Positions 36,762 through 39,131 of a stretch of DNA of 64,000 bases are shown piece by piece. This DNA comes from Microterricola viridarii. Lineage in GTDB: Bacteria; Actinomycetota; Actinomycetes; Actinomycetales; Microbacteriaceae. The stretch is taken from the NCBI RefSeq assembly GCF_001542775.1, contig NZ_CP014145.1, positions 1,922,001 through 1,986,000 of the forward strand, in the 5' to 3' direction. A program made the translations under genes and the position numbers. Every line of letters begins with the position of its first letter. Position 1 is the first letter of the stretch. The notes below the pieces were generated by a model. It did no database searches and was not told the DNA's origin. It was given only the letters and a program-made list of their open reading frames with translations.

Positions 36762-36779
36762 GCAACCGCCTTACCGCCG

Positions 36780-37135
36780 TTGGCTCGAGGGAGCGCCAGC
36801 GACCTAAGCCAACCCGACACGCCGCGGAGCCACCCGACCCGGTCAACGCCCGGGCTTCGGGCGCTGCGCTGCTCCTTCGTCGCGGCGCGGCACCCTCCAG
36901 CCGACGTGAATCTCCGGTTGGCTCGAGGGAGCGCCAGCGACCGAAGCCAACCCCGCCGGGCGCACTCAGCGGAGCGCGGCCAACGCCCGGGCTTCGGGCG
37001 CCGCGCTGCTCCTTCGTCGCGGCGCGGCACCCTCCAGCCGACGTGAATCTCCCGTTGGCTCGAGGGAGCGCCAGCGACCGAAGCCAACCTCGCCGCACGC
37101 ACTCAGCGGAGCGCGGCCAGGCGGCTCGCGGCCTC
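36780..37135. repeat. 137-bp tandem repeat, about 2.6 copies
   Basis: Units begin with GTTGGCTCGAGGGAGCGCC at 36780, 36917 and 37054, exactly 137 bp apart. Each starts with a 35-bp element (GTTGGCTCGAGGGAGCGCCAGC...AGCCAAC), and the first two end in CCAGCCGACGTGAATCTC. The third copy is cut short inside the LLM gene: CACTCAGCGGAGCGCGGCCA occurs in copies 2 and 3 and in copy 3 forms the LLM stop and last codons. This fills most of the 341-bp gap after the VOC gene. No open frame inside looks coding. Confidence 0.88.
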
Positions 37136-38020: not shown

Positions 38021-38050
38021 GACGCTCGCGACCGGGAGCGCCGACAACAC

Positions 38051-38084
38051 CGCAGGCCCCGCTCGAGAACGAGCGGGGCCTGCG
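38051..38084. terminator. Hairpin after zinc-ribbon gene
   Basis: CGCAGGCCCCGCTC (38051-38064), loop GAGAAC, GAGCGGGGCCTGCG (38071-38084): 14 bp, perfect. It lies just downstream of the small gene's stop at 38096. Confidence 0.85.
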
Positions 38085-38095
38085 GTGCCTGATGT

Positions 38096-38266
38096 TTAGG
38101 CCTGCTTGCCGAAGAGACGCGCGAAGAAGCCGGGCTCCTTCGGGTCGTTCTCGTGGCCGGGGCAGCGGTCGGCTCGCGCGACACCGCGCATCACCGAGTC
38201 GACGTGCTGGCCGCATCCGGCCCACGTCGTCTTGCCGCACTTCCTACACTTCACTGCACTGCACAC
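38096..38266 (-). CDS. Small Cys-rich zinc-ribbon protein
   Basis: 56 aa from a GTG at 38266 with AGAAGG 9 nt upstream; a GTG at 38254 would give the more usual start VKCRKCGKTTW. Motifs: CRKCGKTTWAGCGQHVD followed by ADRCPGHEND, giving CxxC, a third Cys in AGCGxH and a later CPGH, a likely metal site. The C-terminus is basic/aromatic (PGFFARLFGK). The CGKTTWxGCGxHV signature recurs in short conserved bacterial proteins of unknown function. The gene lies behind two tandem ATACCC-N3-GGGTAT palindromes, so metal-responsive control is likely. Too short for automatic calling at usual thresholds. Confidence 0.8.
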   Translation of the reverse strand: MCSAVKCRKCGKTTWAGCGQHVDSVMRGVARADRCPGHENDPKEPGFFARLFGKQA

Positions 38267-38299
38267 GCGAAACAACCTTCTGTCGATCGACCGATACGG

Positions 38300-38314
38300 A
38301 TACCCTGCGGGTAT
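38300..38314. promoter_or_regulatory. CsoR/RcnR-like operator 1
   Basis: ATACCC-TGC-GGGTAT, a perfect 6-bp inverted repeat with a 3-bp centre, 34 bp upstream of the zinc-ribbon GTG. TACCC...GGGTA half-sites are the known operator type of the copper repressor CsoR and relatives. Confidence 0.65.
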
Positions 38315-38318
38315 ATAA

Positions 38319-38333
38319 ATACCCTAGGGGTAT
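38319..38333. promoter_or_regulatory. CsoR/RcnR-like operator 2
   Basis: ATACCC-TAG-GGGTAT, with the same half-sites, centred 19 bp from operator 1. The AT-rich TATATAAAT between the two could be the -10 region on the minus strand, so binding would block transcription. Confidence 0.65.
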
Positions 38334-38370
38334 CCAGCTGGGAGTTTGCCCGGTGGTCTGCGGGCATGCA

Positions 38371-38404
38371 AAACGGGCCGCCACCCGAAGGTGACGGCCC
38401 GTTT
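38371..38404 (-). terminator. Hairpin terminator after rpsO
   Basis: AAACGGGCCG (38371-38380) pairs with CGGCCCGTTT (38395-38404), extended by CACC/GGTG. Read on the minus strand it lies 70 bp after the rpsO stop and ends in TTTT. Confidence 0.85.
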
Positions 38405-38474
38405 CGTAAGAAGTTCGCGTAATCAGCGGCCCTTCGACAAGCTCAGGGGCCGAGCACGTGACATCCGGCTATAA

Positions 38475-38744
38475 CTAGCGGCGCAGGCCGAGACGCTCGA
38501 TGAGCGAACGGTAGCGGCTGATGTCGACGTCGGAGAGGTATCCGAGCAGACGACGACGCTGGCCGACCAGGAGGAGCAGGCCACGACGCGAGTGGTGGTC
38601 GTGCTTGTGCTCCTTGAGGTGCTCCGTCAGGTCCTTGATGCGGCGCGTGAGCATCGCAATCTGGACCTCGGGGGATCCGGTGTCACCGGGGTGGGTCGCG
38701 TACTCGTCGATGATCGCCTTCTTGACATTAGCTTCGAGTGCCAT
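38475..38744 (-). CDS. rpsO: 30S ribosomal protein S15
   Basis: 89 aa, the exact length of S15. [28 protein letters not shown], the [23 protein letters not shown] segment that contacts 16S rRNA, and [27 protein letters not shown] are all present. It binds 16S rRNA early in 30S assembly. In most actinobacteria pnp follows directly; here a terminator and 7.4 kb of other genes intervene. Confidence 0.98.
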
Positions 38745-38877: not shown

Positions 38878-39131
38878 TTGGCTTCGGTCGCTGGCGCTCC
38901 CTCGAGCTAACGTGGGAGGGATTGGCTTCGGTCGCTGGCGCTCCCTCGAGCTAACGTGGGAGGGATTGGCTTCGGTCGCTGGCGCTCCCTCGAGCTAACG
39001 TGGGAGGGATTGGCTTCGGTCGCTGGCGCTCCCTCGAACCAACGTGGGAGGGATTGGCTTCGGTCGCTGGCGCTCCCTCGAACCAACGTGGGAGGGATTG
39101 GCTTCGGTCGCTGGCTCCCTCGAGCCAACGG
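38878..39131. repeat. 44-bp tandem array, about 5.8 copies
   Basis: Units starting TTGGCTTCGGTCGCTGG lie at 38878, 38922, 38966, 39010, 39054 and 39098, exactly 44 bp apart. Copies 1-3 carry GAGCTAAC and copies 4-5 GAACCAAC; copy 6 is shortened and carries GAGCCAAC. Copies are separated by GTGGGAGGGA. The core is the same 35-bp element found singly at 56361 and within the 137-bp repeats. The array fills the gap between rpsO and sdhC (38745-39230). Confidence 0.95.

Follow-up and report, generated by a model that had tools for sequence, protein, structure and literature searches.

The window, that is the whole stretch of 64,000 nucleotides analysed here, contains a 56-codon gene for a small Cys-rich protein on its minus strand, as the earlier note had described, with the ribosomal protein gene rpsO as its upstream neighbour (Table 1). 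The GTG is the likely start of the small gene, rather than an upstream TTG, because the remaining 66 small ORFs collected from the bacterial family can all be started at an ATG, GTG or TTG right before a Cys codon (starts of this kind were favoured by the script that was used). The hairpin 3' of the gene has a free energy of -45.9 kcal/mol (z -8.4). Its earlier description as a perfect terminator is correct for the stem, but the gene's own strand lacks a T run, and in a pattern scan the hairpin appeared terminator-like on the plus strand only. With this hairpin behind it and another hairpin, which has a T run, between it and rpsO, the small gene is probably a transcription unit of its own.

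Table 1. Coordinates of the features at and around the small gene in the window
Feature	Position	Strand	Remarks
CDS of the small Cys-rich protein	38096..38266	-	GTG start at 38266, stop codon 38096-38098; 56 codons, 56 aa; conserved C2, C7, C10, C18, H21, C35, H38
AGAAGG, likely ribosome binding site	38276..38281	-	9 nt before the GTG; a likely site as read from the sequence
Proximal putative operator, palindrome ATACCC-N3-GGGTAT	38300..38314	.	exact pattern match
Distal putative operator, palindrome ATACCC-N3-GGGTAT	38319..38333	.	exact pattern match
Perfect 20-bp hairpin, probable terminator	38046..38089	-	3' of the stop codon; T run absent from the gene strand
17-bp hairpin with T run, probable rpsO terminator	38369..38406	-	between rpsO and the small gene
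rpsO (30S ribosomal protein S15)	38475..38744	-	upstream neighbour, outside the unit

The two palindromes upstream of the gene are exact and have their centres 19 bp apart, as had been noted before; the sequence between them is TATATAAATA. When up to two mismatches were allowed, the window contained three matches to the palindrome, against 0.37 expected from shuffled sequences. A pattern scan around the two putative operators in the window found no consensus sigma-70 promoter. In 40 of 84 palindrome-bearing upstream regions the palindrome runs into TATAnT, and a TTGACA-like hexamer at 16-19 bp is present as well in 15 of the 84 (six at a control distance), a promoter geometry that is suggestive only.

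Two repeat arrays were observed near the gene. The gap between rpsO and sdhC contains a tandem array at 38878-39130 (44-bp unit, 5.8 copies, 97% matches) and a 137-bp array is located at 36777-37119; part of the 44-bp unit is common to both, in reverse.

Palindromes and CsoR-family repressors of the genome

The 3.69-Mb genome contains three exact N3 sites, and the reversed control none. Two of the three are those at the small gene, and the third is followed, after 19 nt, by the GTG of a flavoprotein gene in a sulfur operon, which is the sole other carrier of an N3 palindrome in the genome. The operon encodes, in this order, a CoA-disulfide reductase-type flavoprotein with a rhodanese domain (best NCBIfam model: CoA-disulfide reductase, under the model cut-off), a rhodanese, a CsoR-family repressor and a thioredoxin frame. 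The thioredoxin gene of the operon (L006:9120-9502) is split across two reading frames, which represents either a broken gene or a sequence error; intact thioredoxin frames adjoin the small gene in relatives.

Two CsoR-family genes were found in the genome, both outside the window, in line with the earlier statement that no csoR gene lies nearby, and the copper-type genes that were seen are likewise located elsewhere and not at the small gene. The repressor of the sulfur operon (L006:8766-9062, 74.8 bits against PF02583) has a CsoR-family domain with Cys at both sensor positions and without the His, which is the pattern of CstR, the CsoR-family branch that senses per- and polysulfide. Its best NCBIfam model is that of the formaldehyde sensor FrmR, at 44.7 bits versus a cut-off of 133, and the adjacent genes encode sulfur enzymes, so that a formaldehyde sensor is disfavoured. 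The second paralogue (L007:5807-6085) displays Cys-His-His instead of Cys-His-Cys, and its 12-kb locus contains no palindrome, though N5 sites are present near copper genes in other parts of the genome.

With spacers of 2 to 5 allowed, seven sites were found genome-wide, three of them N3, three N5 and one N4, where the four N5 and N4 sites lie near copper-type genes. Two N5 sites are located about 0.4 kb before the gene of a copper-type P1B ATPase and the third at the start of a copZ-like frame (read by eye). The N4 site (L173:1501-1516, G000:C1:3295644) directly precedes the gene of another copper-type P1B ATPase, which has a His-rich start; it is either an exception to a rule based on spacing, or it places the ATPase under the sulfur sensor. 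Because of this site an N4 spacer is in itself no proof of a sulfur target.

The earlier assignment of the palindromes as CsoR-family operators probably holds. According to the passages available from the respective papers, the sulfane-sulfur sensor ScCsoR of S. coelicolor binds the 16-bp sequence ATACC-n6-GGTAT, equivalent to N4 (PMC7533328), whereas the copper CsoR of S. lividans, with copZA as targets, recognizes a site with an N5 spacer (17 bp; PMC3902906). The sites at the sulfur genes of the present genome share the half-sites ATACCC/GGGTAT and the repressor family with the S. lividans regulon, but with 15 bp (N3) they are shorter than the published sites of both sensors.

Operator spacing, linkage and co-occurrence in the bacterial family

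For the bacterial family, 67 small ORFs, one of which is the window's own, were collected from 57 of 61 stretches examined; left out were the rows of G005, G030, G092 and G095, and L134, L163, L165 and L169, where no ORF was found under the motif. The question raised earlier, whether homologues lack such palindromes upstream, could thereby be answered: a palindrome is present within 250 bp upstream of 43 of the 67 ORFs, and the spacer is 4 in 49 and 3 in five of the 54 site-ORF pairs. In the genomes that contain a CstR-type gene, 62 of 63 small ORFs are accompanied by a palindrome or have a CstR gene within 6 kb, against none of the four examined in genomes that lack one.

All 34 CsoR-family genes near the small gene in the family show the CstR pattern. 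A copper-type comparison was provided by the 30 loci listed for the best PF02583 matches in the same genomes, where the repressors are Cys-His-Cys (one was incomplete in the alignment). Using a search pattern that allowed N2 to N5, with flanks of 1.5 kb for the copper-type loci and of 5 kb for the small-gene loci, we found an N5 spacer in 22 of 22 sites at the copper-type loci, but N3 or N4 in 64 of 64 sites, and N5 in none, at 56 small-ORF loci. The published N4 site of S. coelicolor and N5 site of S. lividans agree with this split, as far as the passages available describe them. The combination of an N5 spacer and a nearby Cys-His-Cys repressor, as in a copper CsoR regulon, was thus not found for the small gene, for which CsoR-family palindromes do lie in the promoter region.

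At the small-gene loci of relatives 61 of the 64 sites are N4, and the three N3 sites include two of G063, a congener. Among the matches listed, this congener resembles the window's genome: its small gene is preceded by two N3 sites, and a third N3 site lies about 2.2 kb upstream of its CstR-type gene. The operator type (N3) is therefore common to the small gene and the sulfur operon in both genomes of the genus (G000, to which the window belongs, and G063). It seems that the spacer has changed at both targets together, as would be expected if one repressor reads both.

A second set consisted of 80 named GTDB loci, which were the top matches out of more than 590, so that it leans to close relatives; five proteins are common to the two sets. 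In 60 of these loci 62 CsoR-family frames were found, none of which has the copper signature. A CstR-like expression was matched by 43 of the frames; of the 19 others, 17 were two-Cys on reading and L263 was two-Cys in a separate listing, while L255 is incomplete and was not judged. A palindrome accompanies 41 of the 103 small ORFs in the named loci (41 N4 and two N3 sites), and at 77 of the 80 loci the fetched stretch, which extends at most 6 kb to either side, includes a palindrome or a CsoR-family gene.

The small gene and CstR-type genes tend to occur in the same genomes of the family: 46 of 120 genomes have both, five have the small gene only, five a CstR-type gene only and 64 neither (Fisher p 1e-21). 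CstR-type genes were delimited here by a gap in the profile scores between 93 and 66.6 bits, and rows beyond those listed score below the copper types. The small gene had earlier been considered a lone metal-response unit. In this genus it is indeed detached from the CstR-type gene, but 45 of 75 match rows in the family lie within 6 kb of one. A palindrome was found for 19 of the 24 small ORFs that were read far from a CstR-type gene, which indicates that a small gene remote from the repressor gene is in most cases equipped with an operator of its own. The five without a palindrome comprise four in genomes without a CstR-type gene and one in G096 (five copies); the operator is thus missing in the four repressor-less genomes examined, out of five. 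One repressor-less genome, G099, is 66% complete only, and in another, G112, the small gene is located beside a CDR-type flavoprotein frame (read by eye).

The neighbours in the 80 named loci were counted by comparing frames with named representatives (phmmer, E<=1e-10). The CstR-type repressor was found in 60 loci, a CDR-type flavoprotein in 36 and a thioredoxin in 21, followed by a metallo-beta-lactamase protein (15), TauE (12), an SQR-like flavoprotein (9) and a rhodanese of the genome's own type (9). A further rhodanese cluster extends over 26 of 81 loci, on the basis of BLAST clusters in which sense and antisense frames are mixed. Judged by their sequences, the common neighbours of the small gene are persulfide-handling enzymes.

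These comparisons bear directly on the earlier proposal that the gene is metal-regulated, in which a CsoR/RcnR paralogue that senses Cu (or Ni, Co or Zn) represses the gene, the metal derepresses it, and the product acts as a metallochaperone or sensor. Such a unit would fit the CsoR-family type of the palindromes and the Cys/His-rich product, as well as the presence of the second, Cys-His-His paralogue and of four related palindromes, one of them N4, near copper-type genes of the genome. However, the N5 spacer of the copper-type sites is absent at the small gene, the linked repressors are CstR-type and devoid of the copper signature, the co-occurrence is with CstR-type genes and the common neighbours are sulfur enzymes. 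We therefore consider regulation by a metal highly improbable, and sulfide, which had been listed earlier as an alternative stress only, is favoured as the signal. Control of the small gene by a CstR-type sensor appears to explain the comparative data best and is well supported by them, since operator, regulator type, co-occurrence and linkage agree.

The protein family and its possible role

A profile of the protein family covers 3669 protein clusters. Searches of Pfam and NCBIfam with the window protein and 23 members gave nothing over the cut-off. The open PMC literature, whose coverage leaves subscription papers and preprints outside, yielded no paper in which the protein motif occurs, apart from one unrelated match, and the terms 'small cysteine-rich protein' and 'sulfane sulfur' did not occur together in any of its papers.

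In a comparison of 191 unique members C35 is present in all, and a separate C2 in 190, the exception being L156, for which an inner start was taken by the script. Exactly one of C37, H38 and H39 is found in 190 of the 191 (H38 in 112, H39 in 16, C37 alone in 61+1) and one member has both C37 and H39. Together with C7, C10, C18 and H21 this makes seven conserved ligand-type Cys/His positions. Since the ORF motif demanded C7, C10, C18 and, in most of its branches, W15 and H21, the conservation of these results in part from the search itself. No demand was placed on C2, C35 or positions 37-39, although starts followed by Cys were favoured. A swap between Cys and His is typical of zinc sites. The seven positions suggest, as far as sequence can tell, a protein that holds zinc and sulfane sulfur, and the conserved, Cys-rich product reported earlier is compatible with a zinc site.

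With regard to a zinc ribbon or treble clef, which would have two Cys/His pairs and a matching fold, the pairs observed are C7/C10 and C35 with C37/H38/H39. Two AlphaFold models agree on a hairpin that holds C7/C10 and a helix after C18. Foldseek (both models) and VIA-align (first model) gave no significant structural match, with zinc-finger chains at E 3 or worse, and a sequence search of the PDB gave one match, at chance level (E 0.22).

The regulation may be as proposed while the protein has another function, and two such functions have to be weighed. Firstly, the product could bind an iron-sulfur cluster in the manner of RnfB's small Cys domain, which has the pattern C-x2-C-x4-C-x16-C, and serve as an electron carrier or contain a cluster affected by sulfide stress. 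Among the NCBIfam models, those of RnfB/RsxB come closest to the window protein (E 0.005-0.013), one database source calls a homologue RnfB, and the spacing of the Cys residues is partly alike, with 16 residues between the third and the fourth in both. But the score of about 16 bits stays far under the model cut-offs (220 bits), two of 23 members match the RnfB/RsxB models and none an iron-sulfur Pfam family, and the extra conserved H21 and the swap at C37/H38/H39 resemble zinc ligands, which makes a cluster carrier improbable in our view.

Secondly, the product could be a regulatory or adaptor protein, for instance one that binds the repressor, the rhodanese or the thioredoxin, rather than a holder of sulfur or zinc. 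In line with this the protein is very small, the long forms have a hydrophobic tail (e.g. GFFARLFGR) and some genomes contain a long and a short copy in tandem. The short forms (37-50 residues), however, lose the tail and keep every Cys/His position, so that the Cys core seems to be the essential part, and an adaptor function is to our mind rather unlikely.

We consider it likely that the small gene is a single-gene member of a CstR-type regulon and that its product is a holder of zinc and sulfane sulfur. In the mechanism that we propose, the reduced CstR-type repressor would sit on both palindromes over the promoter. When sulfane sulfur builds up, the two cysteines of the repressor would become persulfidated or cross-linked and the repressor would leave, upon which the small protein and the persulfide-clearing enzymes would be produced at the same time. 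The former would be a very small zinc-holding protein whose cysteines may accept, hold or pass on sulfane sulfur, and which could be regenerated by thioredoxin or CoA-disulfide reductase. We infer this role from the conserved cysteines, the predicted production with persulfide-clearing enzymes, the frequent nearby thioredoxin and the probable zinc ligands.

The proposed system resembles the cst operon with its repressor CstR in S. aureus, and the ScCsoR circuit of S. coelicolor (PDO, TauE, rhodanese, repressor), both in the CsoR-family repressor with two sensor Cys residues and in targets such as rhodanese, persulfide dioxygenase, TauE and related proteins, as described in the passages available (PMC7533328; PMC5480029). 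Those passages make no mention of a small Cys-rich protein, and 'small protein' occurs zero times in the main text of PMC7533328; the persulfide responses in the papers sampled consist of enzymes and transporters. In mouse metallothionein-3, according to the part of the source available, zinc is held via persulfidated cysteines and the apo form is reduced by thioredoxin (PMC12618007). The small protein is likewise small and Cys-rich, and we propose a shared chemistry, in the sense of a protein that may work alike.

A more far-reaching reading, which we put forward as a tentative and rather doubtful one, is that this undescribed family of about 37-64 residues forms a near-constant part of the persulfide response in the actinobacterial family studied and its kin, as a dedicated holder of sulfane sulfur and zinc or a sulfur carrier and a bacterial working analogue of metallothionein-3, that copper (N5) and sulfur (N3/N4) operators are told apart by a code of spacing alone, and that the protein family has been missed because it is so small. 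If so, thousands of tiny Cys-rich proteins would be a non-enzymatic part of the persulfide response, in a family that travels with the sensor, keeps its operator when apart from it and is without operator in sensor-less genomes (4/4 examined). The family could then also be relevant to the connection of sulfide stress with zinc in S. aureus, where sulfide is reported, in the passages available, to elicit a zinc-limitation response (PMC5480029). The split in spacing provides a simple, testable rule by which the copper targets of CsoR-family repressors might be distinguished from their sulfur targets in genomes of this kind.

Occurrence in the phylum and on plasmids

At least 48 of 396 genomes of the phylum match the small protein (16 candidates per genome were scored), and the association with CstR-type genes is weaker phylum-wide than in the family. 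The 1.5-kb flanks of 29 phylum loci contain a CstR-type gene in nine cases and a palindrome-like site in six (one imperfect); 12 have either and 17 have neither. A different palindrome, TTGTCCGTACAA, precedes the small gene in L182 and L189 (G216:C79:24847 and G375:C89:46724), which belong to different families; a search of 11 genomes with one mismatch gave several other sites. Because 17 of the 29 loci have neither feature and this other palindrome is found in two distant genomes, the protein appears to be broader than the CstR regulon, and other regulators may control the gene in distant genomes. L201 and L202, of one genus, have a common CTCACGCACGGCGCGTGAG element before the small gene, and both TTGTCCGTACAA and CTCACGCACGGCGCGTGAG are possible sites of such other regulators. 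In L194 (G483:C7) a palindrome appears to extend into the small gene's start codon (letters read by eye), which would suggest a leaderless transcript.

The small gene was also found on plasmids (L284, L285, L286), in 67 records that are mostly of Rhodococcus and Clavibacter; the plasmid matches listed (20/20) have no annotated feature underneath, in a gene table that is known to be incomplete. On two Rhodococcus plasmids the gene is accompanied by an N4 palindrome, with TauE and rhodanese genes about 3 kb away and no annotated CsoR-family gene in the two stretches. On a Curtobacterium plasmid the small gene, unannotated, is located between a repressor gene and a set of rhodanese, DsrE, TauE, thioredoxin and MBL genes, with recombinase genes at both ends.
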